A stretch of 64,000 nt of DNA, taken from NCBI RefSeq assembly GCF_022448905.1, contig NZ_JAKVCW010000014.1:28354-92353 (forward strand), read 5' to 3'. Every line of letters begins with the position of its first letter. The first letter of the stretch is position 1. This stretch comes from Shimia sp. (GTDB lineage Bacteria > Pseudomonadota > Alphaproteobacteria > Rhodobacterales > Rhodobacteraceae). The position numbers and the translations under genes are program-made. The notes below the pieces were generated by a model, which had not been told where the DNA came from, searched no databases, and worked only from the letters and a program-made list of their open reading frames with translations. Positions 18,941 to 36,835 of the stretch are shown in pieces.

Positions 18941-19059
18941 TCTGCGACATCCGGTAGTGATCGGTTGGTCGCCAAGTGGCAGCTTGGCGCGGTTGCCATC
19001 AAAAAAGCAGCAGAATGTGGCTCAAAGATGGTCCGCGTTCGGCCAGAAAAGGGATTTTC

Positions 19060-19440
19060 TTAGCTAGGACGGGCGTTTGTGTCAGGCTGAAACACGCGGC
19101 CATCATGCTCTAGCTTGCCAACCGCTTCGGTACGGACAAAGTCGAGCAGCTCGAACGTCGTGTCGATGTGGCCACGATTGTGCGGCACGTAGCCGGACTG
19201 ATCAAAGGTGCCGGTTGCCTCGATCACATCACCCGGCGCGACGGTGTCGCGAAAGCGTGCAATCAGGTCTTGGTCGGTTACTGTGAAGCAGACGCGTTTG
19301 GGGTAGCGAAAACCCGGTGCTTCGGCCTCTGTTGCAGCGGTGGCGGAAATGTCAACCAACAGCTTTGGTTCCGGATCGGACAAAAGCAAGGTATGGGCGA
19401 TTTCACCTTTAACGTGAAAGTTGAGGAAGTATGGCTGCAT
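19060..19440 (-). CDS. Hypothetical protein, possibly OB-fold
   Basis: A 126-residue protein beginning MQPYFLNFHVKGEIAHTLL. The alternation of beta-like segments and the stretch GDVIEATGTFDQSGYVPHN followed by ELLDFV recall small OB-fold proteins, but I do not recognise a family. I chose ATG 19440, preceded by GGGAAAGAG; the frame is open 60 codons further upstream into AT-rich DNA, where the reading looks unlike protein. It lies between the kinase and the LuxI-type gene and may be read with the kinase. Function unknown. Confidence 0.6.
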   Translation of the reverse strand: MQPYFLNFHVKGEIAHTLLLSDPEPKLLVDISATAATEAEAPGFRYPKRVCFTVTDQDLIARFRDTVAPGDVIEATGTFDQSGYVPHNRGHIDTTFELLDFVRTEAVGKLEHDGRVFQPDTNARPS

Positions 19441-19993
19441 CTCTTTCCCTGTGATCCTCTTAACGTGGCGCGTGACTGTTCTCTGCAGCTTTGGCGGCAC
19501 AAGGTGGCATTTTGGTGTTTGAGGCTGGGAATTTTCACGAAGCCATTCGTTAACGACTCCCGCCGTTAATAAAGGTTTCGCCTTAATTGGTTGATAGAGA
19601 GTAAATTTTTTGCATAACATTCATATAAAAATATGAAAACTGTGTTCTAGGAGCAGAAACAATCGACAAAATTTTAAAGTTGAACATTTTGTGTAGTGTT
19701 TGGCTAAAAATTGTGTCTCAATCGATTTGAAGGTGAATTTGGACCCAAGAGCTGTTGCGCGGCTAGGTTGTGTCGGGGAGAGGCGCTGGGGGTCCGAGTA
19801 AGGGTTTTCCGGTTGATGTGTGAACGGTTTGTGGGAGCCTGCTGAAGGGGCAGGTGGCCGTGATCTCCTGTGTGTTTTGTGTGTGGTGACGAGTGTTTTG
19901 TTGTGTATCCGGCGCGCGCCAGAATGGCCGTGTCACTGTGTGAGTGAGTTCATTTGGTACCTGGGGCAATGAGTATCCGGAGAAATTGGGGAA
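19441..19993. promoter_or_regulatory. Long AT-rich non-coding region upstream of the LuxI-type gene
   Basis: About 550 bases without a convincing gene between divergent starts. The part 19600-19745 is clearly richer in A and T than the rest of the window. Further right, at 19837-19855, GCCTG-N9-CAGGT is an imperfect inverted repeat like a lux box (usually 5+10+5). The region probably holds the promoters of both neighbours; no strong -35/-10 pair can be named. Confidence 0.4.
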
Positions 19994-20581
19994 ATGCTGA
20001 CGACTACCCTGTCATTCGAGAACATGCACAAGCATGGCGAATTGATGGTCAATCTGCTGAGGGCGCGAAAGCAGTCCTTTATTGTGCAGAACAACTGGGA
20101 CCTGCCCGAGGTGGCAGGCATGGAGTACGACCAATACGACACGCCAGCGTCAAGCTGGATTGCGGTACATGAAGGCGACCGTGTGCTGGCCGGGGTTCGG
20201 CTGACGCCGACAACCGCACGCTGCGGCATGTATTCATATATGATTCGAGATGCCCAGAAAGGCATGCTGGAGTCCATTCCAACCAACCTGCTTTATGACG
20301 AGGCGCCGATCGATCCGTACATTCTGGATGCAAGCCGTGTGTTTGTGGCCCGCGATGTGCCCGCGGAGGATCGCACCGAAGTGCAGACGCAGTTGATGGA
20401 AAAGCTGATCGAGACGGCAAGAGAGATGGGGGCCAAACAAGTGCTTGGTCTGGTGCCCGCGATTTGGCCGCGCTGGATACGCCGTTTGGGTTTGATTGCA
20501 GAGCCTGCTGGGCCGGTGATGTTGGTGGACGGTGCGCCGGTTCAGGTGGCCCGTATGAACCTATCCCATACGCACCACTGA
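19994..20581 (+). CDS. luxI: LuxI-type acyl-homoserine-lactone synthase
   Basis: A 195-residue protein that would make an acyl-homoserine lactone from S-adenosylmethionine and an acyl-ACP or acyl-CoA. The invariant LuxI residues fall at their normal positions: Arg25, Phe29, Trp35, Asp46, Asp49, and Arg69. The conserved Glu of the WE-x-SR block is replaced by Asp112 (LDASRVFV). No luxR gene lies in the window, so the synthase is not paired with a receptor here. It is convergent with a response regulator gene (15 bases apart). GGAGAAATTGGGG precedes the ATG. The acyl chain cannot be predicted. Confidence 0.82.
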   Translation: MLTTTLSFENMHKHGELMVNLLRARKQSFIVQNNWDLPEVAGMEYDQYDTPASSWIAVHEGDRVLAGVRLTPTTARCGMYSYMIRDAQKGMLESIPTNLLYDEAPIDPYILDASRVFVARDVPAEDRTEVQTQLMEKLIETAREMGAKQVLGLVPAIWPRWIRRLGLIAEPAGPVMLVDGAPVQVARMNLSHTHH

Positions 20582-20596
20582 CAAACCTGGTCGCGG

Positions 20597-21670
20597 TTAG
20601 CCAAACGCCGTCGCGATTTTTGGAGACTGGCCGTCATCATTTAAGGCGTCGTGCAGCAAGGATTCGTAAGCGCGGCGCTCCATTTCCGTTTGAAAGCCAC
20701 TTGCCGGATGCAGGCGCACGGTTTTGCGCAGGTCCGCTGCAGGCGTGCCCGGAAGGCGTTCCCTTACGCTTTCTGCGGCCTTTTGCAGTGCGTCCAACGC
20801 GCCGCCGCGGGTCAGGGTGCGCAGTTTGATGGCCTCGCCAAAACACACATCGTTTTGTAGCCCGTCGATTTGCGTCGATGGCACGTATTCCAGGCGGCTG
20901 TTGAGTTCTGCTTCCAGACGCGCGCTGGAGTATCTGGCGCTGCGGGGCAGGGTGCCGACGAACACACCGTCCCCCTTGTAGGTCACTTGGGCGTCATTGT
21001 TGGCCAGGACAGACAACAGCTCGCTGCCGATGTCTGTCAGGAGTTGGCGAAACGCCATTGCGGACAAGGAGGTATAGGCGCTTTCCACGGTGTTGATTTT
21101 CACAGCAAAAGCCTGTGTGCGCATGCGTTGGCGGCGCGGCATGTCCAGCACGTGTCGCTCAAACGCCATGCAGCCGACAAGCTGCGTCACGCCGGTGATT
21201 TCAATCGGTTCACTCAGGCTGTGGGCGGTGTTGAATATCAAGTCTTTCTTCAGGGCGGCCATCTCCGAGACACTGGCCGTGAGTTCCTGCTGCTCAGAAA
21301 CTTGGCGCTCGGCGATGGTGATCCGTGTGAAGAGTTCCAGGAAGTCGAACGGTTTCGTGACGTAGTCCGTGGCGCCCGCTTCAAAAGCGGCATCGATGTA
21401 TTTCTTTTGCGACATTGCCGTCAGCATCAGAATAGGTGTGCGCGTGTAGGCTTTGATTTTGCGGATCTTTTTGGCCAGCGTGATGCCGTCCATGATTGGC
21501 ATTTGAACGTCCAGCAGAAAGCAGTCAAACGGCACTTTGGCTTTCGCAATGGCACGAATGGCCTCTGGTCCGGAGGTCACGGTGACAATGCTATGATTGG
21601 TTTTGGCAGCGACAGCCTCTGACAGCAGTTCGCAGATGTGTTCGTCGTCATCAACGGCCAAAATTTTCAT
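20597..21670 (-). CDS. Response regulator with degenerate GGDEF-like output domain
   Basis: A 357-residue protein. Residues 1-120 are an intact receiver (acidic DDD at 7-9, Asp54 in FLLDVQMP, Lys106 in VTKPFD). A short coiled coil follows (SEQQELTASVSEMAALKKD). The C-terminal half shows a pattern like a nucleotide cyclase fold: FAVKINTVESAY, FRQLLTDIGSELLSVL, then YKGDGVFVG, where an active enzyme would have the GG(D/E)EF loop. That loop has lost its glutamate and one glycine, so catalysis is unlikely. I chose ATG 21670, where the receiver starts. It may receive phosphate from the neighbouring relay. Confidence 0.78.
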   Translation of the reverse strand: MKILAVDDDEHICELLSEAVAAKTNHSIVTVTSGPEAIRAIAKAKVPFDCFLLDVQMPIMDGITLAKKIRKIKAYTRTPILMLTAMSQKKYIDAAFEAGATDYVTKPFDFLELFTRITIAERQVSEQQELTASVSEMAALKKDLIFNTAHSLSEPIEITGVTQLVGCMAFERHVLDMPRRQRMRTQAFAVKINTVESAYTSLSAMAFRQLLTDIGSELLSVLANNDAQVTYKGDGVFVGTLPRSARYSSARLEAELNSRLEYVPSTQIDGLQNDVCFGEAIKLRTLTRGGALDALQKAAESVRERLPGTPAADLRKTVRLHPASGFQTEMERRAYESLLHDALNDDGQSPKIATAFG

Positions 21671-21954
21671 AGTCCCAGCCCTTTCTGGCGCTGTGCCTGT
21701 GCTTTGTACCTTCCTAACTGTATCACTCACTACCGCCGACGTTCTCATCGGTTCTGTGGGAGTGAGTATGTTGGGGGAATGCGGTCAGAAAGGGGCGGGA
21801 ATGGCGCCCTAGGGGGAAAAATTAAGAATTTGTTAACCCAGTTTTTTATGGGGGAAATGGATCAGGGTATTGGAAATGCGGCAGGATTTCGGCGCAGGTG
21901 CGTCGTAGTCAACTTAGGGGGGAGGAGTTTTTTTGTGCCTCGCGCAGGCTTCGG

Positions 21955-22818
21955 CTAAACAAACTTCCGGAAGATTTTTGTCTGGTCAAACATATCTTCC
22001 AGCGCGTGCATCCGGGTTTCCGTCTGATCCCAGCGGGCTTCTTGTACGGCGGCGATCAAGGTTTCTGACAGCAGCATCATCGACACGGTTGAGTCCCAGG
22101 CTGACGGGGCTTCGATGCGACATTTCAGGGACACATCGGCGTATTGGCTGATCGGGCTTTGCCATTGATCGGTGATCAGGGCGATTTTTGCGCCGCGCTC
22201 TTTGGCGATTTCGGCCAACCGCAAGGTGGAGTTCTCGTAGCGTCGGATGTCGTAGATCAGCACCACGTCGCCTTCGGCTATGTCGAGTAAGTCATGTGGC
22301 CAAGCGTTGGAGGTGGAGCGAATATGGCGTACGCGGGCGCGGATGACCTGCATGTGCAGATGCAGATACTCGCTCAACGCATGGGTGATGCGGCCGCCAG
22401 TGATATAGAGCGCCCGCTTTTCGTCCGCGAGCAGCGCGGTGAGCGCGTCAAATTGCGCAGGGTCAATGTTGGCCAGTGTCTGGCGAATGTTGCTCATGAC
22501 CGCATCGGTAAAGCGGTTGAGGATATGCGCTTCCGGGGCGCTTTGGGCCCAGCTTTCATGTTTCGCGATGGGATTAGAGAAGCGGGCTTCCACTTCCTGG
22601 CGCAGCGCGTCCTGAAACTCTGGGAAGCCGGAGTAGCCGAGCTTTTGCACCATACGGGCCACAGTGGGCGTGGAGACCGACGCCTTCTCTGCGAGGCGCG
22701 TGATCGAGCCCATGCCCGACATCGGGTAGTTCTCCAAGATCACACCGGCGAGCTGGCGCTCGGCGCGGGTCAAACTGTCATAAATCTTGTTTATCGTTTC
22801 CTGAGCGGTGTCGGCCAC
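21955..22818 (-). CDS. MurR/RpiR family transcriptional regulator
   Basis: A 287-residue regulator. Residues 1-80 form the RpiR helix-turn-helix (LTRAERQLAGVILENYP...VSTPTVARMVQKLGYSGFPEFQ), and residues about 125-260 a SIS domain (LYITGGRITHALSEYLH, GDVVLIYDIRRYENSTLRLA), which usually binds a phosphosugar or similar small molecule. It is divergent from the N-formylglutamate amidohydrolase and TRAP genes and is very probably their regulator. Two palindrome-like sequences lie in the divergent region. Confidence 0.92.
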   Translation of the reverse strand: MADTAQETINKIYDSLTRAERQLAGVILENYPMSGMGSITRLAEKASVSTPTVARMVQKLGYSGFPEFQDALRQEVEARFSNPIAKHESWAQSAPEAHILNRFTDAVMSNIRQTLANIDPAQFDALTALLADEKRALYITGGRITHALSEYLHLHMQVIRARVRHIRSTSNAWPHDLLDIAEGDVVLIYDIRRYENSTLRLAEIAKERGAKIALITDQWQSPISQYADVSLKCRIEAPSAWDSTVSMMLLSETLIAAVQEARWDQTETRMHALEDMFDQTKIFRKFV

Positions 22819-22837
22819 GGGATGTCCACTTACTAAC

Positions 22838-22906
22838 TGCTACAAATGTAAGCATAGTTTCAAAGCATCGGTCTGAGAAGAAAAATTTTCAGAATAATTA
22901 TTGACA
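22838..22906. promoter_or_regulatory. Divergent control region with candidate RpiR operators
   Basis: Two near-palindromes: TGCTACAAATGTAAGCA (22838-22854, one base out of register) and GAAAAATTTTC (22880-22890). A -35-like TTGACA follows at 22901-22906 on the plus strand, but no good -10 can be named. Placed between rpiR and the catabolic genes, so likely operators. Confidence 0.4.
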
Positions 22907-22964
22907 GGATGGGTGACTCTGAAGAAGTTTGTTCACAAATGCGAATTGGCACGACAGGACCAAC

Positions 22965-23720
22965 ATGACTCTAGACGATTCAGAGGCAGTGATGATCGAG
23001 GGCGCGGTGGCGCCCTGCGATATTCTGTTTGTGTGCGAACATGCCTCCTGCCATTTCCCCGACGCTTTTGGGGACCTTGGCCTTGATGAGGCGGTGCGCC
23101 GCAGCCATGTGGCCTGGGATCCCGGTGCGCTGACGCTGACCCGCGAGTTGGCCAAGCGGTTTTACTGTACGCTGGTTGCGGGGGGCGTGTCGCGGTTGCT
23201 GTATGACTGCAATCGCCCGCCCGAAGCCAAGGATGCGGTGCCAACCAAAAGCGAGATTTTTGAGATTCCCGGCAATTCGGATCTGTCCGATGCAGAGCGT
23301 CGGGCGCGGGTGACCCAGATCTACCAACCCTTCAAAGAGGCGGTGGAGCAGGTGATCGAGGTGGTGCATCCGAAAGCAATCGTCACGGTCCATAGCTTCA
23401 CGCCGGTGTATCACGGCAAGCAGCGTGCGGTGGAGATTGGCATACTGCACGATCGAGACACGCGGTTGGCCGACAGCATGATGAACTCCATGGCGGACGG
23501 CCCGTTTGTCACGCTGCGCAATGACCCCTATGGGCCAGAGCATGGCGTCACACATTCGCTCAAGGCCTACGCGCTGCCCAACAAGCTGCCCAATGTGATG
23601 CTTGAGGTGCGCAATGACCTGTTGGCTGAGGACGCCAAGGCGGCGGAGATCACAGACGCGCTGGAGGCCGCCATTGCCCAAGGCATGGCAGAGTTGCGCG
23701 ATGCGGGGGAGATCACCTGA
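22965..23720 (+). CDS. N-formylglutamate amidohydrolase family protein
   Basis: A 251-residue protein. The family motifs are there: FVCEHASCHFP near the N-terminus, DPGALTLTRELA, SRLLYDCNRPP, TVHSFTPVYHG and LEVRNDLL. Histidines and acidic residues of these motifs form a zinc site in related enzymes. The classic reaction is hydrolysis of N-formyl-L-glutamate in histidine breakdown, but no hut gene is nearby; in this locus it may act on another acylated or gamma-glutamylated compound (inference). ATG 22965 is chosen over an upstream in-frame ATG at 22929. Its stop overlaps the dctQ-like start (TGATG). Confidence 0.85.
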   Translation: MTLDDSEAVMIEGAVAPCDILFVCEHASCHFPDAFGDLGLDEAVRRSHVAWDPGALTLTRELAKRFYCTLVAGGVSRLLYDCNRPPEAKDAVPTKSEIFEIPGNSDLSDAERRARVTQIYQPFKEAVEQVIEVVHPKAIVTVHSFTPVYHGKQRAVEIGILHDRDTRLADSMMNSMADGPFVTLRNDPYGPEHGVTHSLKAYALPNKLPNVMLEVRNDLLAEDAKAAEITDALEAAIAQGMAELRDAGEIT

Positions 23721-24316
23721 TGCCCAAGCTTATTCGCTATTACATCCACGGCGTGGACTGGTTTAACCGCAAGGTTGGCCGGTTTGTCATGTATGGCATC
23801 TTTGTCATGATGGCGATCCTTCTGTGGTCGTCGTTCTCCAAGACCTTCATGACACCGTCGATGTGGACGCTGGAAATGGCGCAATTTGCGATGGTGGCCT
23901 ACTACATCCTTGGCGGGCCTTACGCGGTGCAAATGGGCTCCAACGTGCGGATGGACCTGTTCTATGGCGAATGGACGTTTCGCCAGCGAGCCATCGTCGA
24001 CGCGATGACCGTGTTCTTCCTAGGGTTCTATCTGGTGATCCTGATCCACGGGGCGGTTGGCTCCAGCGCCTATTCACTGGGGCACTTTGGGGTTGAGCCA
24101 TACACCTTCTACAAGGACCTGGTTGTGGCCTACATCACCGGTGGCAAAGAGGCTGCCAGTGAAATCATCGGATACATCGAGCGCAGCCCGACGGCCTGGC
24201 GCCCGGTTCTCTGGCCAATCAAGCTGATCATGCTTTTTGGCTTTATTCTTATGCTCTTGCAGGCGATTTCTGAGCTCATGAAAGACATCGCGCGCATTCG
24301 TGGGGTGGACTACTAA
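23720..24316 (+). CDS. TRAP transporter small permease (DctQ type)
   Basis: A 198-residue four-helix membrane protein of the tripartite ATP-independent periplasmic system (for example VMYGIFVMMAILLWSSF, FAMVAYYILGG, DAMTVFFLGFYLVIL, LWPIKLIMLFGFILML). It has a longer than usual loop between helices 3 and 4. The start overlaps the previous stop by one base and its stop overlaps the DctM start (TAATG), so the genes are coupled. The substrate is not known. Confidence 0.92.
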   Translation: MPKLIRYYIHGVDWFNRKVGRFVMYGIFVMMAILLWSSFSKTFMTPSMWTLEMAQFAMVAYYILGGPYAVQMGSNVRMDLFYGEWTFRQRAIVDAMTVFFLGFYLVILIHGAVGSSAYSLGHFGVEPYTFYKDLVVAYITGGKEAASEIIGYIERSPTAWRPVLWPIKLIMLFGFILMLLQAISELMKDIARIRGVDY

Positions 24317-25638
24317 TGTCTTACGAAATGATCGCCATTCTGATGTTCTCGACTATGATGCTGATGCTCATGACCGGGCAACGTGTCTTTGGCGCAATTG
24401 GCTTTGTTGGCGTGCTGGCAGCGGTGTTGCTGTGGGGCACTGGTGGTTCTGACATCGGCTTCTCCGCCGCGATGAAACTGATGAAATGGTATCCGCTGCT
24501 GACGCTGCCGATGTTCATTTTCATGGGCTACGTGCTCAGCGAGTCAAAGATTGCCGACGACCTCTACAAGATGTTCCATGTCTGGATGGGACCAGTGAGA
24601 GGCGGGCTCGCTATTGGTACTATTCTGTTGATGGTTCTAGTTTCCGCAATGAACGGTCTGAGTGTGGCAGGTATGGCGATTGGTGCCACCATTGCGCTGC
24701 CGGAACTGCTGAAGCGGGGCTATGACAAACGCATGGTCACTGGGGTTATTCAGGCTGGATCAAGCTTGGGTATTTTGGTGCCGCCCTCTGTGGTGCTGGT
24801 GCTCTATGCGATGATCGCGCGCCAGCCGGTTGGGCAGCTGTGGCTTGCAGGGGTGTTTCCGGGCCTGATGATGGCCGCGATGTTCATTCTCTATGTGGTG
24901 ATCCGCTGCCGCATTCAGCCGGAGCTTGGACCCGCGCTGCCGGAAGCCGAGCGTAACATCAGCCGCGCGGAAAAGATGAAACTCCTGCGCGCCGGCCTGC
25001 TGCCAATTGTGATCTTCGCCACCATGATGATCCCCTTTGTGAACGGCTGGACCTCATTGGTGGAAAGCTCGGCAATTGGCGCGATCACTGCCTTTGTCGC
25101 GGCAGTCTTGAAGGGCCGCATGACCCGCGAGGTGTTTGAGAACTCCGTGCGCAGCACGCTGGGTATTTCCTGCATGTTCATGTGGATCATTCTGGCAGCG
25201 CTCGGGTTTGGCGCGGTGTTTGACGGGTTGGGTGCGGTGAAAGCCATCGACAACCTGTTCACCGAGCAGCTGGGGCTGGAGCCATGGATGATCCTGATCC
25301 TGATGCAGTTGAGCTTCATCATCATGGGCACCTTTCTGGATGACACCGCGATGCTGGTGATTGTGGCGCCGCTCTATGTGCCGCTGGTGAAGGTGCTGGG
25401 CTTTGATCTGATCTGGTATGGCGTGCTGTACACCATCACCACGCAGATCGCCTATATGACGCCGCCTTTCGGCTACAACCTGTTTCTCATGCGGGCCATG
25501 GCGCCCAAAGAAGTCACCCTACGCGACATTTATCGCAGCATCGTGCCCTTTGTGGCGGTGATGGTCCTGGCCTTGGCCTTGGTCATGATCTTCCCACAGA
25601 TCGCGCTGTGGCTGCCGAACTATGTTTACGGAAAATAA
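24316..25638 (+). CDS. TRAP transporter large permease (DctM type)
   Basis: A 440-residue, about 12-helix membrane protein using an ion gradient to import the ligand handed over by the binding protein. DctM family wording: TLPMFIFMGYVLSES, MGPVRGGLAIGTIL, GASLGILVPPS-type motif as QAGSSLGILVPPSVVLVLY, and TPPFGYNLFLMR near the C-terminus. Same cluster type as TRAP transporters of organic acids, but the PPS/TPPFG motifs do not tell the substrate. Confidence 0.94.
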   Translation: MSYEMIAILMFSTMMLMLMTGQRVFGAIGFVGVLAAVLLWGTGGSDIGFSAAMKLMKWYPLLTLPMFIFMGYVLSESKIADDLYKMFHVWMGPVRGGLAIGTILLMVLVSAMNGLSVAGMAIGATIALPELLKRGYDKRMVTGVIQAGSSLGILVPPSVVLVLYAMIARQPVGQLWLAGVFPGLMMAAMFILYVVIRCRIQPELGPALPEAERNISRAEKMKLLRAGLLPIVIFATMMIPFVNGWTSLVESSAIGAITAFVAAVLKGRMTREVFENSVRSTLGISCMFMWIILAALGFGAVFDGLGAVKAIDNLFTEQLGLEPWMILILMQLSFIIMGTFLDDTAMLVIVAPLYVPLVKVLGFDLIWYGVLYTITTQIAYMTPPFGYNLFLMRAMAPKEVTLRDIYRSIVPFVAVMVLALALVMIFPQIALWLPNYVYGK

Positions 25639-25691
25639 CAACAGAAAAGAGCGCCGCAAACGGGGCCGAAACGCAACAAGGAGAGTAAGAG

Positions 25692-26726
25692 ATGACGACA
25701 AGACGTAAGTTTCTTCAGACCGCTGGTGTTGGGGCGATGGCCGCACCACTGGCGACCCCGGCGCTCGCACAGAGCACCATCAAATGGCGTATGCAGACCT
25801 ATGCAGGTCCGTCGCTGGCCGCGCATGTGATTGATCCAGCGATCAACATGTTCAACAAGATCGCAGGCGACCGCATGCAGATCGAACTGTTCTACGCCGA
25901 TCAGCTGGTCCCGACCGGTGAGCTGTTCCGTGCGATGCAGCGCGGCACTATCGATGCGGTTCAGTCGGACGATGACTCCATGGCGTCCCCAACCGAAGTG
26001 ACCGTGTTTGGCGGCTACTTCCCGTTTGGCTCGCGCTACAGCCTCGACGTACCTGTGCTGTTCAACCAGTACGGCCTGAACGAGATTTGGGACGAAGAGT
26101 ATTCCAAAGTGGGCGTGAAGCACATCAGCGCCGGCGCATGGGACCCATGCCACTTTGCCACCAAAGACCCAATCAACTCGCTCGACGACCTCAAAGGTAA
26201 GCGCGTCTTCACCTTCCCAACTGCAGGCCGCTTCCTGAGCCAGTTTGGCGTGGTGCCAGTGACCCTGCCATGGGAAGACATCGAAGTTGCGGTTCAGACC
26301 GGCGAGTTGGACGGTATCGCATGGTCCGGCATCACCGAGGACTACACGGTGGGTTGGGCCGACGTGACCAACTACTTCCTGACCAACAACATCTCCGGTG
26401 CTTGGGCGGGCAGCTTCTTTGCCAACCAGGGCCGTTGGAATGAGCTGCCAGAAGATCTGCAGACCCTGTTCCGTGTGTGCTGTGATCAGTCGCACTACTA
26501 CCGTCAGTGGTGGTATTGGGGGGGCGAAGCCAACCTGCGCGTCAATGGCACCAAGATGCAGCTGACCACCATTCCGGATGACGAATGGGCACAGGTGGAA
26601 ACCGCAGCCGTGAAGTTCTGGGACGAGATCGCAGCCGAAAGCCCAACCAAGGCGAAAGTTGTGGAAATCTTCAAGAAGTACAACGCGGACATGCAGGCGG
26701 CTGGCCGCCCATACCGTTACGGCTAA
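25692..26726 (+). CDS. TRAP transporter substrate-binding protein (DctP type)
   Basis: A 344-residue periplasmic binding protein with a twin-arginine signal (TTRRKFLQTAGVGAMAAPLA) and cleavage probably after ALA-Q, residue 28. It has the DctP fold landmarks (ADQLVPTGELFRAMQRGTID, GKRVFTFPTAGRFLSQFG, VAVQTGELDGIAWSG). The twin-arginine signal places it in the branch with FcbT1/mandelate-related binders rather than the Sec-exported C4-dicarboxylate ones. GGAGAG precedes the ATG. A strong hairpin follows the gene, which fits a more abundant binding protein than membrane part. Confidence 0.92.
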   Translation: MTTRRKFLQTAGVGAMAAPLATPALAQSTIKWRMQTYAGPSLAAHVIDPAINMFNKIAGDRMQIELFYADQLVPTGELFRAMQRGTIDAVQSDDDSMASPTEVTVFGGYFPFGSRYSLDVPVLFNQYGLNEIWDEEYSKVGVKHISAGAWDPCHFATKDPINSLDDLKGKRVFTFPTAGRFLSQFGVVPVTLPWEDIEVAVQTGELDGIAWSGITEDYTVGWADVTNYFLTNNISGAWAGSFFANQGRWNELPEDLQTLFRVCCDQSHYYRQWWYWGGEANLRVNGTKMQLTTIPDDEWAQVETAAVKFWDEIAAESPTKAKVVEIFKKYNADMQAAGRPYRYG

Positions 26727-26749
26727 GGTCCCTTAGCGATGAAAACTGC

Positions 26750-26777
26750 GAAGCCCCGGTTGTTGTGCCGGGGCTTC
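26750..26777 (+). terminator. Hairpin after the binding-protein gene
   Basis: GAAGCCCCGG-TTGTTGTG-CCGGGGCTTC is a perfect 10-bp stem without a T run, 24 bases past the stop. It may protect the upstream mRNA end or partly end transcription before the synthetase gene. Confidence 0.6.
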
Positions 26778-26827
26778 GGTGACAAAACACGCCACGCGAA
26801 GGCCCGATACAAAGGAATGCGCATCAG

Positions 26828-28192
26828 ATGTCTGGCAACCTGACTCTAGAAGAACTGGGCGCGCTGAGCGCCAGCGGCGAGATCGACACTGTTCTGGCCT
26901 GTATTGTGGACATGCAGGGCCGCCTGATGGGCAAGCGTTTTGTGGCGCAGCATTTTGTCGACAGCGCCTGGGAAGAGACCCATTGCTGCAACTACCTGCT
27001 GGCGACCGATCTGGAGATGCACACAGTGGAAGGCTACGCCTCCACCAGTTGGTCGGCGGGCTATGGCGACTACATCATGAAGCCGGACCTCAGCACACTT
27101 CGCAAAGCGGCCTGGCTGGAAGGCACTGCGCTGGTGATTTGCGACGTGATGGACCATCACGGCCATCACGACATCGAACACTCCCCGCGTGGTATGCTGA
27201 AGAAGCAGGTGGCGCGGCTGGCGGAAATGGGCTTTGAAGCCGTGTCCGCAACCGAGCTGGAGTTCTTTATCTTTGAGCAGAGCTTTGAAGAGCTGAGCAA
27301 ATCCGGCTACCGCGATCTGACCCCGATCAGCGCCTACAACGAAGACTACCACATCCTGCAGACGACCAAGGAAGAAGGCGTGATGCGCACCCTGCGCAAC
27401 GGTCTTTATGCGTCTGGTATTCCAATTGAAGGCTCCAAAGGCGAGGCCGAGACCGGGCAGGAAGAGCTCAACATCCGCTACGGCAGCGCGATGGACGCGG
27501 CGGAAAACCACACCGTTGCAAAGCACGCCGCCAAGGAAATCGGCTGGCAGCAGGGCCACGCGGTGTCGTTCTTGCCAAAGTGGCGTCACGACAAAGTTGG
27601 CAGCGCCAGCCACGTGCATCAGTCGCTCTGGACCAAAGACGGGGTGCCTGCATTCTACGACGCTGATGCGGATCTCGGCATGTCCGAGCTGGCGCGCCAC
27701 TATCTGGGCGGCTTGCTGAAGTATGCCGATGACATCACCGTGTTCCTCGCGCCCTATGTGAACAGCTACAAACGCTTCCAGAAGGGCAGCTTTGCACCCA
27801 CAGCGAAGGTCTGGTCGGTGGACAACCGCACGGCGGCTTTCCGTCTCTGCGGGGACAGCACCAAAGCCGTGCGCGTTGAATGTCGTGTGCCAGGCGCGGA
27901 TATGAACCCTTATCTTGCGATTGCCGCGCTGTTGGCCGCAGGCATCAAGGGCATTGAGGAAAAATGTGATCCGGGCGCGCCGTTGAGCGGGGATGCCTAT
28001 GAGAACAGCAATGCGCAGATCCCGACTACGTTGAAAGACGCAACCGAGGCCCTACGTGGGTCCAAGATGCTGCGTGAGGCTATGGGCGATGCGGTGGTCG
28101 ACCACTATGTGCGCATGGCGGAATGGGAGCAGGAAGCCTTTGAGGCGGTTGTGACCGATTGGGAAATTGCCCGCGGGTTTGAGCGGGCCTAA
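26828..28192 (+). CDS. Glutamine synthetase family protein, PuuA-like gamma-glutamyl-amine synthetase
   Basis: A 454-residue enzyme of the glutamine synthetase superfamily. The N-terminal beta-grasp region (VDMQGRLMGKRF) and catalytic domain are present: ATELEFFIF for metal glutamates, SHVHQSLW in place of GSGMHVHQSL, and FRLCGDSTKAVRVECRVPGADMNPYLAIAA. The ending EAVVTDWEIARGFERA matches gamma-glutamylpolyamine synthetases (PuuA type) rather than ammonia-using GlnA. It should ligate glutamate to an amine with ATP; which amine is unknown. AAAGGA before the start. It follows the TRAP genes and precedes aldehyde and alcohol dehydrogenases. Confidence 0.9.
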   Translation: MSGNLTLEELGALSASGEIDTVLACIVDMQGRLMGKRFVAQHFVDSAWEETHCCNYLLATDLEMHTVEGYASTSWSAGYGDYIMKPDLSTLRKAAWLEGTALVICDVMDHHGHHDIEHSPRGMLKKQVARLAEMGFEAVSATELEFFIFEQSFEELSKSGYRDLTPISAYNEDYHILQTTKEEGVMRTLRNGLYASGIPIEGSKGEAETGQEELNIRYGSAMDAAENHTVAKHAAKEIGWQQGHAVSFLPKWRHDKVGSASHVHQSLWTKDGVPAFYDADADLGMSELARHYLGGLLKYADDITVFLAPYVNSYKRFQKGSFAPTAKVWSVDNRTAAFRLCGDSTKAVRVECRVPGADMNPYLAIAALLAAGIKGIEEKCDPGAPLSGDAYENSNAQIPTTLKDATEALRGSKMLREAMGDAVVDHYVRMAEWEQEAFEAVVTDWEIARGFERA

Positions 28193-28283
28193 GACCGGCG
28201 CGAGGGGGCGACCCTTCGCTTTTCCGGCGGACTAGTGAACTAAGAAAAGCGGGGCAGGTGCCCCCTCTGGATGGAGTGTTGCC

Positions 28284-29666
28284 ATGAGCGGCATGTTGAC
28301 GTGTATTTCTCCGATCGACGGATCGGTCTTTGCAGAACGCCCTGTGTTGAGCGCGGATGAGGCCTTTGCTGCCGCGAAACGCGCAAAGGAGGCACAGAAA
28401 GCTTGGGCGGCGCGTCCGTTGCAGGAGCGCGTGGATCTGGTGAGGGCCGGTGTCGCGGCTGTTGGCGCAATAAACGATGAAATCGTTCCTGAGATTGCCA
28501 AGATGATGGGCCGTCCGGTGCGTTATGGCGGCGAGTTTGGCGGCTTTAACGAGCGCGCGAGCCATATGGCATCCATCGCGGCGGAGAGCCTTGCGGATAT
28601 TCAAGTTGGCGAGGACTCCACCTTCAAACGTTACATCAAGCGCCTTCCGCATGGGGTGGTCTTTGTTGTCTCGCCTTGGAACTACCCTTACATGACCGCC
28701 ATTAACACTGTTGCGCCTGCGCTGATTGCGGGCAACACGGTGATGCTGAAACACGCGACGCAAACGCTGGTCGTTGGCGAGCGCATGGCGCAGGCGTTCC
28801 ACTCCGCCGGTGTTCCGGAAGACGTGTTCCAGAATGTGTTCCTGAGCCATGACGTGACCAACGAGCTGATCGCGGGCAATGCGTTTGACTTTGTGAACTT
28901 CACCGGCTCTGTGGGTGGCGGTCAGGCGATGGAGCGCGCGGCCGCGGGCACTTTCACCGGCGTTGGCACCGAGCTGGGTGGCAAAGATCCGGGCTATGTC
29001 ATGGAAGACGCAGACGTGGATGCGGCGGTGGATACGCTGATCGACGGCGCGATGTTCAACTCGGGCCAGTGTTGCTGTGGTATTGAGCGTATTTACGTGC
29101 ATGAGAGCCTGTATGACGATTTTGTCGCCAAGGCGGTTGAGATTGTGCAAGGCTACAAGCTGGGCAATCCGCTGGAGGAAGACACCACCATTGGCCCAAT
29201 GGCGAACGTGCGTTTTGCCAATGAGGTTCGAGCGCAGATTTCTGAGGCCTTGGAAGCCGGTGCCACCGCGCATATCGAGACTTTCGCCGAAGATGACGGC
29301 GGGGCCTATCTGACGCCACAAATTCTGACCGACGTGACGCATGAGATGCGCGTGATGCGCGATGAGAGCTTTGGTCCGGTTGTTGGCATCATGAAGGTGT
29401 CCTCCGATGAGGAAGCCATCGCGCTGATGAATGACAGCGAGTTTGGCCTGACCGCGTCGCTGTGGACCAAAGACGTGGAGCGCGCCGAGCGCGTGGGCAA
29501 CGAGATCGAGACCGGCACCGTGTTTATGAACCGCGCCGACTACCTTGATCCGGGTCTGTGCTGGACCGGCTGCAAAAACACTGGCCGTGGCGGTGGGTTG
29601 TCGGTGATCGGCTACCAGAACCTGACACGACCAAAGAGCTATCACCTGAAAAAGGTGACTGTGTAA
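28284..29666 (+). CDS. Aldehyde dehydrogenase family protein
   Basis: A 460-residue NAD(P)-dependent aldehyde dehydrogenase. The catalytic glutamate lies in GTELGGKDPGYV and the catalytic cysteine in FNSGQCCCGIERIYVH; FTGSVGGGQ is the cofactor loop, with VSPWNYPY before it. The length is at the short end of the family but no motif is missing. Given its neighbours it may oxidise a gamma-glutamylated or free amino aldehyde to the acid. Only 91 bases separate it from the synthetase gene, and a GGAGTG site precedes its ATG. Confidence 0.93.
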   Translation: MSGMLTCISPIDGSVFAERPVLSADEAFAAAKRAKEAQKAWAARPLQERVDLVRAGVAAVGAINDEIVPEIAKMMGRPVRYGGEFGGFNERASHMASIAAESLADIQVGEDSTFKRYIKRLPHGVVFVVSPWNYPYMTAINTVAPALIAGNTVMLKHATQTLVVGERMAQAFHSAGVPEDVFQNVFLSHDVTNELIAGNAFDFVNFTGSVGGGQAMERAAAGTFTGVGTELGGKDPGYVMEDADVDAAVDTLIDGAMFNSGQCCCGIERIYVHESLYDDFVAKAVEIVQGYKLGNPLEEDTTIGPMANVRFANEVRAQISEALEAGATAHIETFAEDDGGAYLTPQILTDVTHEMRVMRDESFGPVVGIMKVSSDEEAIALMNDSEFGLTASLWTKDVERAERVGNEIETGTVFMNRADYLDPGLCWTGCKNTGRGGGLSVIGYQNLTRPKSYHLKKVTV

Positions 29667-29674
29667 ATATGGGG

Positions 29675-29741
29675 ATCCGTTCTCTGTCAGTGCTATGAGA
29701 ACGGATAAACCGGGTGCCGGAGACAGAATGTCCCGGCATCC
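29675..29741 (+). terminator. Two tandem hairpins between aldehyde and alcohol dehydrogenase genes
   Basis: ATCCGTTCTC (29675-29684) pairs perfectly with GAGAACGGAT (29697-29706); next, GGGTGCCGG (29712-29720) pairs with CCGGCATCC (29733-29741) using one G-T pair. No T run follows, so processing or stabilising elements are as likely as terminators. Confidence 0.55.
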
Positions 29742-29759
29742 ACATTTTGAGGAAGAACA

Positions 29760-30905
29760 ATGACACTCACTGGAAACTGGTCTTATCCGACCGCGATCCG
29801 TTTTGGGGCTGGCCGCATTGGGGAATTGGCAGAAGCCTGTGCCCAGGCTGGCATGAAAAAACCGCTGCTGGTGACCGACAAAGGTCTGGCAAACCTGCCA
29901 ATCACCGTGGCTACGCTGGACCTGTTGGAAGCTGCTGGTCTTGGCCGTGGGCTGTTTGCCGAAGTTGACCCAAACCCAAATGAGCTGAACCTGACAGCCG
30001 GTGTGGAAGCCTATAAGGCGGGTGGCCACGATGGCGTGATTGCCTTTGGTGGCGGCTCTGGTCTTGATCTAGGTAAAATGGTGGCCTTTATGGCGGGCCA
30101 AACCCGTCCGATCTGGGACTTTGAAGACATCGGCGATTGGTGGGCCCGTGCGGACGCCCACGCGATTGCGCCGATTGTGGCGGTGCCAACCACCGCGGGT
30201 ACCGGCTCCGAAGTGGGCCGCGCCAGCGTGATCACCAACAGCGTCACCCATGAGAAGAAGATCATCTTCCACCCGAAGGTGCTGCCATCTGTGGTGATTT
30301 GTGATCCGGAACTAACTGTGGGCATGCCACAGTTCATCACTGCTGGCACCGGTCTGGACGCCTTTGCACACTGTGTCGAAGCCTACTCCAGCCCGCACTA
30401 CCATCCAATGAGCCAGGGCATTGCGCTGGAAGGCATGAAGCTGGTGGTGGAGAACCTGCCGCGTGCTTATGCTGACGGACGTGACATTGAAGCCCGTGCG
30501 GAGATGATGAGCGCCGCGATGATGGGGGCGACCGCTTTCCAAAAGGGCTTGGGCGCGATCCACGCGATGAGCCACCCGGTTGGCGCGATGTTCAACACCC
30601 ACCACGGCACCACCAATGCGGTTTGCATGCCCGCGGTTCTGGAGTTGAACGCGTCGGTGATTGCGGAGCGGTTTGACCGTGCGGCGGGCTATCTCGGCAT
30701 CGAAGGCGGCTTTGATGGTTTCTGCGCCTTTGTGCAGGGCTTCAACGACAGCATGGGCATCCCACGCAAGCTCTCTGAGTTGGGCGTGACCACGGATGCG
30801 ATCCCTGAGCTGGTAAAAGGCGCGTTGATTGACCCGTCTTGCGGCGGCAACCCGGTTGAGTTGACCGAAGCCAACTTGACTGCGCTGTTTGAAGCGACAA
30901 TCTAA
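29760..30905 (+). CDS. Iron-containing alcohol dehydrogenase
   Basis: A 381-residue group III dehydrogenase. The NAD-binding GGGS is in AFGGGSGLDLGK; the metal site is built from GTGLDAFAHCVEAY, HAMSHPVGAMFNTHHGTTNAV with Asp and three His as expected; PTTAGTGSEVGRASV is the second family signature. In this locus it may oxidise a hydroxyl group to an aldehyde that the upstream dehydrogenase takes further. GAGGAAG precedes the ATG. The stop overlaps the stop of cobF on the other strand (CTAA). Confidence 0.93.
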   Translation: MTLTGNWSYPTAIRFGAGRIGELAEACAQAGMKKPLLVTDKGLANLPITVATLDLLEAAGLGRGLFAEVDPNPNELNLTAGVEAYKAGGHDGVIAFGGGSGLDLGKMVAFMAGQTRPIWDFEDIGDWWARADAHAIAPIVAVPTTAGTGSEVGRASVITNSVTHEKKIIFHPKVLPSVVICDPELTVGMPQFITAGTGLDAFAHCVEAYSSPHYHPMSQGIALEGMKLVVENLPRAYADGRDIEARAEMMSAAMMGATAFQKGLGAIHAMSHPVGAMFNTHHGTTNAVCMPAVLELNASVIAERFDRAAGYLGIEGGFDGFCAFVQGFNDSMGIPRKLSELGVTTDAIPELVKGALIDPSCGGNPVELTEANLTALFEATI

Positions 30906-31657
30906 GTCGATTTGCGCAGTAGGTAGATATCCATAATCCACCCGTTAGAGGCCCGTGCATCCGCGCGGGCCTCAACGATTTGGGCAGAGACCTCAGACAA
31001 AGGGCCTTCGATTAGGACCTGTTGATCCATGCCGACATAGCCCCCCCACCAGATGTGGATGCCACTTGGGTCGAGGTTTTGGAACGAGCATTCGCCGTCC
31101 AGCATCACCGCCACAGTGGGCGTATCGACTGGCCAGCCTTCATCCCGCAGTTTGCGGCCTGTGGTGATTTGCACCGCACCACCGAGGGTGTTGAGCGGGA
31201 TGGCGTGGGCCGCTGTCAGCATTTGTAAGGACGTGATGCCGGGGATAACTTGCACGTTAAGGTCGATACCGCGTGCGATCAGGCGGTCTGCAATGCGCAG
31301 GGTGCTGTCGTAAAGCGACGGGTCGCCCCAGACCATCAGCGCGACACTGCCGTTGTCTGGCACGTGGCTGGCAATCAGGTCCTGCCAGATGGCGGCCAGC
31401 GCGTCGTGCCATGTGTTCACGCCGTCGAGGTATTTCGGCGTGTTGGCATCGCGCACCGGATAGTCAAATTCAACAATCTTTGGCGACGTGCTGAGCAGCT
31501 CGCTGGCAATCATCCGACGCAGGTCGGCAAGTTCGGTTTTCTCATCCCCTTTGCGCGGCAACAGGATCACGTCGGCGCCTTCCAGCATCTTGATCGCTTG
31601 AAGCGTCAAGTGATCGGGGTTGCCGGAGCCAATGCCGACCAAAGATAGGTTGATCAT
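30902..31657 (-). CDS. cobF: Precorrin-6A synthase (deacetylating) CobF
   Basis: A 251-residue SAM-dependent methyltransferase of the aerobic cobalamin pathway: it methylates C1 of precorrin-5 and removes the acetyl group. N-terminal GIGSGNPDHLTLQAIK, then VWGDPSLYDSTLRI and VIPGITSLQMLTAA are the tetrapyrrole methylase landmarks; length and wording match CobF. Last gene on the minus-strand run, starting within the cobA stop (ATGA overlap). CobF exists only in the oxygen-dependent route. Its stop codon overlaps that of the alcohol dehydrogenase gene. Confidence 0.94.
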   Translation of the reverse strand: MINLSLVGIGSGNPDHLTLQAIKMLEGADVILLPRKGDEKTELADLRRMIASELLSTSPKIVEFDYPVRDANTPKYLDGVNTWHDALAAIWQDLIASHVPDNGSVALMVWGDPSLYDSTLRIADRLIARGIDLNVQVIPGITSLQMLTAAHAIPLNTLGGAVQITTGRKLRDEGWPVDTPTVAVMLDGECSFQNLDPSGIHIWWGGYVGMDQQVLIEGPLSEVSAQIVEARADARASNGWIMDIYLLRKST

Positions 31658-32376
31658 GCGCTTACCGCCAACTCGCCAAAGAGGATGATGCCAGGGGCCT
31701 TGGTGATCTCCTTGCTGAGCTGGTCTGCCAAGGCCTCCATGGTGGTGCGGGTCAGAGTTTGATCCGGGTGGGAAACGTTTTCAGCCAAGAGAGCAGGGCA
31801 GTCGCGGCGCAGGCCGGACGCGAAAAGCTTCTCGGCCAGTTCCGGAAAAGTGCGCTTGGGCATAAACAAAACAGTGGTCGCACCAGGATCGGTCAGCGAT
31901 TGCAGGTGCAGATCGCCGGGCAAGGCGCCTGCCACGTCATGGCCGGTCACAAATTGCACACGCCGCGCCACAAGGCGGCGGGTGAGCGGAATACCTGCGG
32001 CAGCTGCGGCCGCACTTGCCGAGGTCACGCCGGGGATGATCTCAAAGTCGATGCCATGTTCTTTGAGTGCGGTGATCTCTTCTTCAAGGCGGCCAAAAAT
32101 GCCGCAGTCACCCGACTTCAAACGCACCACATGGGCGCCTGTTTTGGCATAGTCCACGAGAAGTTGGCTAACATGATGCTGTTTCGGACTTGGCCGTCCC
32201 GCGCGTTTGCCAACCCCCACCAGATCGGCGTCCTTGTTGGCGTGCTCCAGGATGGGACCGGAGGACAGGTCGTCAAACAGAACCGCTTCGGCCTTGCCAA
32301 GGCGGTTCACGGCTTTGAGGGTCAAAAGCTCGGGATCGCCTGGACCGGAGCTGACGAAGCTGACAAATCCGCTCAT
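31654..32376 (-). CDS. cobA: Uroporphyrinogen-III C-methyltransferase CobA
   Basis: A 240-residue enzyme making precorrin-2 by two methylations of uroporphyrinogen III, the branch point to cobalamin and siroheme. GSGPGDPELLTLKA-like start (SSGPGDPELLTLKAV), VGKRAGRPSPKQ, VVRLKSGDCGIFGR and IIPGVTSASAAAAAAGIPLT are classic SUMT motifs; the usual KGGDPF is KSGDCG here, a change worth noting. Stand-alone type without CysG oxidase domain. Start and stop overlap cobB and cobF by ATGA. Confidence 0.94.
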   Translation of the reverse strand: MSGFVSFVSSGPGDPELLTLKAVNRLGKAEAVLFDDLSSGPILEHANKDADLVGVGKRAGRPSPKQHHVSQLLVDYAKTGAHVVRLKSGDCGIFGRLEEEITALKEHGIDFEIIPGVTSASAAAAAAGIPLTRRLVARRVQFVTGHDVAGALPGDLHLQSLTDPGATTVLFMPKRTFPELAEKLFASGLRRDCPALLAENVSHPDQTLTRTTMEALADQLSKEITKAPGIILFGELAVSA

Positions 32377-33683
32377 GAGGTGGCCTCTGCGATCAGGTGG
32401 AAGAAGGTGCCAGTGACATGGCCTTTGATGGAGCCGGTTTCCGGGACAGGGTTGCCATCCGCGTCGCCCACTTGGGCCAGAGGTTCGTCCGGTTCTTCCA
32501 AAATGGTGGTGTAATGAAACTCGTGCCCACGAAGACGCGCGCCGGTGTCAAAACCCAGCATCGGGGCATTGAGGGTGGCCTGGCGGTAGCCGAGGTGAAA
32601 TTTGCGTTTCTCGTAAGAAGTCACAAGGCCGAGTAGCCCAGCCATTTCATGGCGGATGCCGTCTTTATCGATCAAAGCAGTTCCGAGCGCCATATAGCCG
32701 CCGCACTCTCCGTGCACCGGTTTGGTTTTGGCATGTTTGCGCAGGCCGGTGAGATAGGTTTGGTTGGCGGCGAGTTTGCTGGCGTGCAGCTCCGGGTAGC
32801 CGCCGGGCAGCCAGACCAGATCGGCGCTTGGATCAGGCGCTTCATCCGCAAGGGGCGAGAACGGCAGAATTTCCGCACCGGCGTTGCTCCAGCCGGTTAA
32901 AAGGTGGGGGTAGGTGAAGCTAAAGGCGGCATCGCGCGCCAAAGCAATGCGCTGCGCAGGTGGTTTGGGCAGGGTTCCGGTTTTGGTGTCGCCTGAGCGC
33001 GCAGCGGATTTAATCGCTTCGAGATCGACGTGTTCACGCAAGAAAGCCGCATAGCCGGTGATGGCCTCTTCCAAATCTGGATGCTCCACCGCCTGGATCA
33101 GCCCGAGATGGCGTTCTGGCAGGGTTAGGTCGCCACGACGCGGCAACACGCCAAGTACGTTCACGCCAGCTTTGTCCATACCCAGTCGCGCAAGGCGCTC
33201 GTGGCGCGGTGAGGCGCAGCGGTTGAGGATCACGCCAGCAAACGGAAGATCGGGATTGTAGGTTTTGAACCCCAAAGCTGTGGCCGCAGCAGATTGCGCT
33301 TGGCCGCCCACGTCGATCACCAAGACCACCGGCCAGCCCATCATCAGGGCGGTCTCCGCCGAACTTCCAAAGCCGTTTTCGCCGCGCGTGGCAACGCCGT
33401 CAAACAGGCCCATACTGCCTTCGGCGACCACAATGTCGGCACCTTGGGCTTGCTCAGAGATTCCACCAGCCAGCGCAGGCGGCATGGCCCAAGTGTCGAG
33501 GTTGAAGGCCGGGCGGCGCGCGGCAGCATGGTGAAACGCCGGGTCGATGTAATCCGGGCCTGATTTGAACGGTTGCACTTTCAGTCCGTCTTCGGCCAAT
33601 GCACGTAGGAGGCCCAACATAACCGTGGTTTTGCCGGTGCCGGAGGAAGGGGCGGAGATCAGAATACCGGGAGGCATGGTCAT
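32373..33683 (-). CDS. cobB: Cobyrinate a,c-diamide synthase CobB
   Basis: A 436-residue amidotransferase that amidates side chains a and c with ATP and glutamine; in the aerobic route the substrate is hydrogenobyrinate. P-loop SAPSSGTGKTTVMLGL and KSGPDYIDPAFH at the N-terminus, ILNRCASPRHE in the middle, and the glutamine amidotransferase part with the nucleophile cysteine in VHGECGGYMALG. The length is normal. It starts 15 bases after cobM and overlaps cobA. Confidence 0.96.
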   Translation of the reverse strand: MTMPPGILISAPSSGTGKTTVMLGLLRALAEDGLKVQPFKSGPDYIDPAFHHAAARRPAFNLDTWAMPPALAGGISEQAQGADIVVAEGSMGLFDGVATRGENGFGSSAETALMMGWPVVLVIDVGGQAQSAAATALGFKTYNPDLPFAGVILNRCASPRHERLARLGMDKAGVNVLGVLPRRGDLTLPERHLGLIQAVEHPDLEEAITGYAAFLREHVDLEAIKSAARSGDTKTGTLPKPPAQRIALARDAAFSFTYPHLLTGWSNAGAEILPFSPLADEAPDPSADLVWLPGGYPELHASKLAANQTYLTGLRKHAKTKPVHGECGGYMALGTALIDKDGIRHEMAGLLGLVTSYEKRKFHLGYRQATLNAPMLGFDTGARLRGHEFHYTTILEEPDEPLAQVGDADGNPVPETGSIKGHVTGTFFHLIAEATS

Positions 33684-33698
33684 GTCAGTTATCTTTCT

Positions 33699-34493
33699 TT
33701 AGTCGTCGCCGTGTTGCCAGCTGGACCACGGGCTGTCAGCGGTCTGCGGGCGATAGCGGCGGTCATATTCGGTGGCGTAGAGGCAGCTTTCGTCAAAGCC
33801 TTCACCTGCGAGTGCGGGGCCTACGAGGATCAGCGCGGTGCGGGTTATGTTCTCGGTCACATCGTCTTTCAGGCTGGCGAGCGTCGTGCGGATGACTTGC
33901 TGGTCCGGCCAACTGGCGCGGTATACCACGGCGACAGGGCAGGTGGTCCCATAGGCTGGTGTGAGGTCTGCAATCACCTTATCGAGATTGCCAATCGATA
34001 GGTGAATTGCCAATGTCGCGCCGGTGGCGGCGAAGTTGGTGAGTGTCTCGCCTTTTGGCATGGACGACGCGCGGCCCGGTGTTCGGGTCAAAACCACGGA
34101 TTGGGCGAGGCCGGGCAGGGTTAGCTCGGATTGCAGGGCGGCAGCTGCGGCGGCAAAACTGGGCACGCCGGGAGTCACGGATACCGGGATGCCTTCGGCC
34201 TTCAGGCGGCGGATTTGCTCTCCCATGGCGGACCAGACGGACAAGTCGCCGGAATGCAGGCGGGCCACGTCTTGACCAGCCTCATGGGCCACTTTGCACT
34301 CGGCCACGATGGCGTCGAGGTCCAGCGGTGCCGTGTTGATCACGCGGGCGTTGTCGGGGCAATGTGACAAGATGGCGTCGGGTACTAAGGAGCCCGCATA
34401 GAGGCAAACCGGGCAGGATGCGATCAGGTCGCGGCCCCGCAAAGTGAGCAGATCTGCGGCACCAGGGCCTGCGCCAATGAAGTGAACAGTCAT
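33699..34493 (-). CDS. cobM: Precorrin-4 C11-methyltransferase CobM
   Basis: A 264-residue tetrapyrrole methylase acting on C11 of precorrin-4. The start [20 protein letters not shown] and the block [17 protein letters not shown] are highly typical of CobM/CbiF, as is [16 protein letters not shown]. It overlaps the cobE stop by ATGA, so translation is coupled. Part of the lower half of the minus-strand cobalamin genes, downstream of antisense cobK. Confidence 0.96.
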
Positions 34494-34849
34494 AGGGGCT
34501 CTCCTTGCGCGATGGCGCAGGTGGCAAGGCGGTCGGCGGAAACGACGCGCGATGTGGTCAGGCAGGCGTTGTTAAGGGCTGCAAGCGCACAGGCTTCAGC
34601 CACCGAGCCGGTACCGCGTTGTTCATGCACCTTGGCGGATTGGGTTGGCGTTTCAACAGCTTGCATTGCGCCCGCTTCAATTTCCAAAACTGGTAAGTTG
34701 TGTGCTTGAGCAAAGGATTGCAGCGTTTTGCTTTTCGCTTTGTCCGCAGGCGTAGCGATGGCGTCGACCTTGGCCGCCGTCAATGCGAGTGCATCGCTCA
34801 GGCTGTGCTCCGTAGCGGAGGCCCGGAATCCAAAACCAGCGACGATCAT
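34490..34849 (-). CDS. cobE: Cobalamin biosynthesis protein CobE (CbiG C-terminal-like)
   Basis: A 119-residue protein beginning [13 protein letters not shown], with [22 protein letters not shown] and [16 protein letters not shown], the pattern of the CobE/CbiG C-terminal domain. In the aerobic pathway its exact job is not settled; an assisting role in later methylation steps has been proposed. The ATG at 34849 forms an ATGA overlap with the cobL stop, which is why I prefer it to an in-frame start at 34864. Confidence 0.88.
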
Positions 34850-36778: not shown

Positions 36779-36781
36779 CGG

Positions 36782-36806
36782 GCGCAATCCTGAGAGGATG
36801 CGCTTT
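36782..36806 (+). terminator. Weak terminator-like hairpin after cobK
   Basis: GCGCAATCCT pairs with AGGATGCGC with a one-base bulge and a GAG loop, followed by only three T. It begins 4 bases after the cobK stop, in the 57-base gap to cobJ. Confidence 0.4.
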
Positions 36807-36835
36807 GTCGCCGTTTGACTGGCGCCCCAAGTCAC

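Follow-up and report, generated by a model that had tools for sequence, protein, structure and literature searches.

A Shimia gene cluster that very probably encodes a Roseobacter-type ethanolamine catabolic operon

Which compound is imported and broken down by a TRAP transporter that is encoded together with a glutamine-synthetase-like ligase, two dehydrogenases and an amidohydrolase, and is such a route already known? The question is raised by a run of genes in the genome of Shimia sp., within a stretch of 64,000 nucleotides that we analysed as a whole and call the window. A sequence-only reading of this DNA had placed the run at 21955-30905, and all eight open frames are indeed found there, as a divergent RpiR gene and seven genes on the plus strand. 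We conclude that the locus is very probably a Roseobacter-type ethanolamine catabolic operon, judging from orthology; it is an orthologue of a published ethanolamine operon and in that sense brings no novelty. Its features are as follows, with identities to the copies in the corresponding locus of Roseobacter sp. MED193 (L006).

21955..22818, minus strand: RpiR-family regulator (HTH_6 and SIS), divergent from the operon; Pfam, 52% identity to the RpiR protein at the same place in L006
22819..22964, no strand: control region of the divergent pair, holding a promoter-like TATTGACA box and repeats of the CTGAA type; possible operator for RpiR, by prediction
22929..23720, plus strand: GGAH, FGase-family amidohydrolase, predicted gamma-glutamylglycine amidohydrolase; Pfam, structure 2ODF, L006 copy (49% identity over 91% of its length)
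23720..24316, plus strand: EtoV, TRAP small permease (DctQ); Pfam, 63% identity
24316..25638, plus strand: EtoW, TRAP large permease (DctM); Pfam, 72% identity
25692..26726, plus strand: EtoX, ethanolamine-binding TRAP solute-binding protein by homology, with a Tat-type signal; structure 4UAB, 94% identity to MED193 EtoX
26828..28192, plus strand: ETAGA, predicted glutamine-synthetase-like ethanolamine gamma-glutamylase; Pfam, structure 5DM3, 68% identity
28284..29666, plus strand: GAADDH, aldehyde dehydrogenase, predicted to convert gamma-glutamylacetaldehyde amide to gamma-glutamylglycine; Pfam Aldedh, 85% identity
29760..30905, plus strand: GETADH, iron alcohol dehydrogenase, predicted to oxidize gamma-glutamylethanolamide; Pfam Fe-ADH, 84% identity

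Every family assignment stands above its curated Pfam cut-off: HTH_6 (58 bits) and SIS (75.8) for the regulator, FGase (121.1) for the amidohydrolase, DctQ (48.5), DctM (229) and DctP (73.3) for the importer, Gln-synt_C (337.2) for the ligase, Aldedh (388.5) for the aldehyde dehydrogenase, and Fe-ADH (157.8) with ADH_Fe_C (152.5) for the alcohol dehydrogenase. The genes are tightly packed, with one-base frame overlaps at 23720 and 24316 and gaps of 53 to 101 bases between the remaining plus-strand genes.

A counterpart of this run has been published for Phaeobacter sp. MED193, where MED193_10021 to 10056 are listed as RpiR, GGAH, EtoV, EtoW, EtoX, ETAGA, GAADDH and GETADH and a gamma-glutamyl route for ethanolamine is drawn (PMC10132767, 2023). 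On phosphorylethanolamine, five of these proteins (GGAH, EtoX, ETAGA, GAADDH and GETADH) are raised in MED193 (Table 2 of PMC10132767), and EtoX is also raised without any phosphorus source. MED193 EtoX binds ethanolamine with a Kd of 7.9 ± 1.9 µM and, according to the text of the same paper, does not bind phosphorylethanolamine, glycerol-1-phosphate, glycerol-3-phosphate or phosphocholine. The MED193 locus shares all eight genes with the window in the same order and orientation, RpiR being divergent from GGAH-EtoV-EtoW-EtoX-ETAGA-GAADDH-GETADH in both, and the enzyme steps are predicted by orthology. Identity between the two is uneven, running from the binding protein, through the two dehydrogenases, the large permease, the ligase, the small permease and the regulator, down to the amidohydrolase.

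By analogy with that operon, EtoVWX would import ethanolamine, the ligase would join it to glutamate, the resulting gamma-glutamylethanolamide would be oxidized to gamma-glutamylglycine by the iron alcohol dehydrogenase together with the aldehyde dehydrogenase, and the FGase-family amidohydrolase would release glutamate and glycine, with RpiR probably controlling the operon. The sequence-only reading had proposed import of a small compound bearing amine and hydroxyl groups, gamma-glutamylation, oxidation of the alcohol to aldehyde and acid, and glutamate release by the amidohydrolase-like protein, a scheme that matches the published ethanolamine route. We infer the activity of each window protein in the window organism, as well as the role of RpiR. 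What the window itself contributes is orthology and a gene order that is conserved, whereas the binding-protein ligand and the rise of five proteins on phosphorylethanolamine are evidence from elsewhere (PMC10132767).

The arrangement recurs in related loci. A scan with the binding protein returned at least 582 related places, and we kept the best 80, which are 85-98% identical to the query and whose titles are largely from the Roseobacter group, with some others. In 65 of these 80 loci all eight genes are present with order and orientation unchanged, so the arrangement is not due to chance. Among the best 80 of at least 582, the binding protein and DctM were each detected in 80, DctQ in 78, FGase in 75, RpiR and the ligase in 74 each, the aldehyde dehydrogenase in 72 and the alcohol dehydrogenase in 69, as called by tblastn at E 1e-20, a threshold at which more diverged copies would be missed.

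As regards the ligand, the binding protein starts with MTTRRKFLQTAG, apparently a signal of the twin-arginine type, as had been claimed. It matches 4UAB at 638 bits, with 266 of 318 aligned residues identical (84%), and the next structure chain scores 73 bits. In alignment to 4YZZ, a more ordinary TRAP protein, Phe173 lies opposite an arginine, and 4UAB has the same phenylalanine; we take this to be the place of Arg147 of SiaP, going by the arginine of 4YZZ and by PMC4646407. The structure 4UAB is that of Csal_0678 from Chromohalobacter salexigens with ethanolamine bound (PMC12410723), and Csal_0678 is described as having no equivalent of the carboxylate-binding arginine of other TRAP proteins (PMC4646407). 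Glu220 of Csal_0678 is named as the acid that holds ethanolamine (PMC12410723); Glu216 of the window protein aligns with index 217 of the 4UAB chain and is likely to be this platform acid, assuming that the two numberings differ by 3. The window thus encodes an EtoX-type protein with no carboxylate-binding arginine and, by the assumed offset, with the platform glutamate. An acid as the ligand of the TRAP importer was rejected because of the missing arginine and the closeness to the ethanolamine-bound structure.

Phe173 and Glu216, as well as Y37, W150, W211, Y218 and W238, are each kept in 80 of 80 loci, although this is a consistency check that carries little weight alone, because the loci were picked as the best matches (85-98% identical) out of at least 582. 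The aromatic residues Y37, W150, W211, Y218 and W238 might surround the ligand, but this is a guess. In its own genome the protein is the single strong copy, the five other matches being 21-30% identical. Ethanolamine is the ligand of the EtoX-type family, to judge from 4UAB and MED193 EtoX, and we infer its binding by the window protein from homology; it was also the first compound in the list of candidate substrates that the sequence-only reading put forward for growth assays.

The ligase finds its best solved-structure matches in 5DM3 (699 bits, residues 1-453) and 11ZS (554 bits), with the next at 199 bits. It had been described as a PuuA-like synthetase, of which the synthetase family is borne out by Gln-synt_C, whereas the likeness to PuuA is loose: the protein scores 211.7 bits with the model for gamma-glutamylputrescine synthetase (NF045547), far under the cut-off of 650. 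It likewise falls below the cut-offs for type I GlnA (TIGR00653, 251.8 versus 429.15 bits) and type III glutamine synthetase (244.2 versus 469.6 bits), and identity as PuuA or GlnA was rejected on these scores. Such family-level matches to the GlnA, type III and gamma-glutamylputrescine synthetase models are what would favour reading the enzymes as serving polyamine or ammonia assimilation, with a PuuA-like or true glutamine synthetase beside a TRAP importer for an organic acid. Given that all three scores stay well under their curated cut-offs, that a phenylalanine occupies the position of the arginine in an ordinary TRAP protein, and that Pfam matches reveal no polyamine oxidase or aminotransferase among the eight genes, we find this barely credible.

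The two dehydrogenases retain the catalytic residues expected of their families. In the aldehyde dehydrogenase, N133, E230, C263 and C264 are present in 71 of 71 aligned loci, and in the iron alcohol dehydrogenase D200, H204, H268 and H282 are present in 68 of 68 and H281 in 67 of 68, one further locus not covering the residues in each case; we take these to be the expected catalytic or metal-binding residues. The amidohydrolase matches 2ODF, named Atu2144, at 267 bits. It has a nearly invariant group of polar residues: E37, H38, D64, R89, N95 and R96 occur in 74 of 74 aligned loci (one further locus does not cover them), H60 in 73 of 74, and H155 and E226 in 75 of 75. That its substrate is gamma-glutamylglycine is a prediction founded on the published assignment and on gene context.

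The divergence of two of these enzymes from their MED193 copies leaves some room for other substrates. The main substrate might be another small amino alcohol (3-aminopropanol, serinol and alaninol are examples), ethanolamine being only a secondary ligand; the ligase (68%) and amidohydrolase (49%) have indeed diverged from MED193 more than the binding protein (94%), and the four compounds named in the text of PMC10132767 as unbound by MED193 EtoX include no other free amino alcohol. However, the window protein is 94% identical to an EtoX that binds ethanolamine with micromolar affinity and 84% identical to a protein crystallized with ethanolamine, and the five MED193 proteins were raised on phosphorylethanolamine (PMC10132767), so we consider this alternative highly improbable. 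A milder version is that the substrate range in the window branch has widened or shifted to further amino alcohols entering via the same importer. As the ligase and amidohydrolase have drifted from MED193 and the binding protein has not, the range could have drifted with them, but we regard this too as very unlikely.

Ethanolamine catabolism of this kind, to which we assign the window locus, has been described or proposed beyond the Roseobacter group. Chromohalobacter salexigens, which belongs to a bacterial class other than that of the window organism, has the closely similar Csal_0678, likewise missing the equivalent of Arg-147 of SiaP. Csal_0678 is described as an ethanolamine TRAP binding protein associated with a glutamylation pathway (PMC10132767, PMC6529630, PMC4646407, PMC12410723). 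Two of these papers present the evidence from C. salexigens with unequal firmness: the ethanolamine route of C. salexigens and A. tumefaciens C58 is cited from earlier work in PMC10132767, and that of C. salexigens is called predicted in silico in PMC6529630. In Streptomyces coelicolor, the route proposed for GlnA4 passes through gamma-glutamylethanolamide, gamma-glutamylacetaldehyde and gamma-glutamylglycine and ends with an enzyme of the formylglutamate-amidohydrolase family, proposed in print in 2019 (PMC6529630). Its intermediates and last enzyme resemble those predicted for the window, but the Streptomyces cluster has a short-chain dehydrogenase instead of an iron alcohol dehydrogenase, a putative transporter to which the main text does not apply the term TRAP, and the regulator EpuRI (PMC6529630).

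The sequence-only reading had presented TRAP import and an amidohydrolase of this family as new parts of gamma-glutamylation routes. This claim fails because both are already published: TRAP uptake of ethanolamine for Csal_0678/4UAB and EtoX (PMC10132767, PMC4646407, PMC12410723), and the FGase-family protein as gamma-glutamylglycine hydrolase (PMC10132767, PMC6529630). The value of the present assignment lies instead in accurate annotation, as from family models alone the genes would pass for those of an N-formylglutamate amidohydrolase, a generic TRAP importer and a glutamine synthetase. In the sea, ethanolamine derived from membrane lipids serves as a source of nitrogen and carbon, and the genes for its transport are reported to be widespread there and expressed at high levels (PMC10132767); the locus adds one member. 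EutB (PF06751) had no match in the organism's own genome, which is 99.99% complete, and among 14 control genomes it was matched in E. coli only. The B12-dependent ethanolamine route (EutBC) is therefore not apparent in this genome, and was rejected on the search for EutB.

Fifteen of the 80 loci are incomplete. Eight of them (L011, L013, L016, L045, L054, L061, L067 and L072) do not extend far enough on the side where genes are missing, so their gaps are uninformative. The other seven (L018, L022, L047, L051, L055, L063 and L070) have room and lack matches to one to five genes at E 1e-20. In L018, L022, L051, L063 and L070 the importer is present, and the ligase and both dehydrogenases are unmatched within 8000 bases downstream; with the exception of L018, each of these is also missing RpiR, FGase or both. 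L047 is without a match to the aldehyde dehydrogenase only and L055 to the iron alcohol dehydrogenase only, and in these two replacement of the enzyme is possible. As roomy loci carry the importer without some of the enzymes, the two sets are separable, and in the five loci the rest of the pathway may lie elsewhere or have been replaced. This separability counts against our assignment, as do the rise of MED193 EtoX without a phosphorus source and the divergence of the ligase and amidohydrolase from MED193. No obvious ethanolamine-degrading enzyme was seen among 10 Pfam-scanned flanking proteins of L018, L022 and L063. The neighbours in L022 include a phosphatidylserine decarboxylase, a CDP-alcohol phosphatidyltransferase and an MTTB-family protein.

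The TATTGACA box and the CTGAA-type repeats, which lie between rpiR and the gene for the amidohydrolase, form a candidate promoter and RpiR operator, predicted from sequence. The longest GGAH frame opens with TTG at 22929 and contains an in-frame ATG at 22965; the box lies close before 22929, which suggests that translation starts at the ATG rather than the TTG. Both flanking genes were found in 73 loci, one of which was too short and was dropped, giving 73 control regions with the window included. The pattern T[AT]TTGACA occurs upstream of the amidohydrolase gene in 45 of these 73 regions, compared with an average of 0.45 of 73 over 20 mononucleotide shuffles. This contrast is overstated because the shuffles preserve nothing but base content, related loci were counted, and the choice of pattern followed k-mer counts of those same regions. 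A search of the control region for inverted repeats returned short or imperfect ones only.

Downstream, the operon is bounded by a convergent gene at 30902-31657 that passes the CobF cut-off (320.3 versus 195.8 bits). CobF and its neighbours are a separate cluster on the minus strand, convergent to the operon; it occupies 30902-43356 of the window and comprises cobalamin biosynthesis genes (CobF, several tetrapyrrole methylases, a CobB/CbiA-type protein, CbiG_C and CobN). Unlike EutBC, the gamma-glutamyl route for ethanolamine has no known requirement for B12. Among the best 80 of at least 582 loci, CobF lies beside the operon in L001-L003 only, which are the closest loci among the matches listed and come from two Shimia and one Rhodobacteraceae bacterium. 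On the other side, window positions 17483-21748 adjoin the operon and encode, on the minus strand, a histidine kinase (17483-18940) and a receiver-domain protein (20597-21748). The latter has no further Pfam domain and, again among the best 80 of at least 582, is common to L001-L003 and weakly matched in L021.
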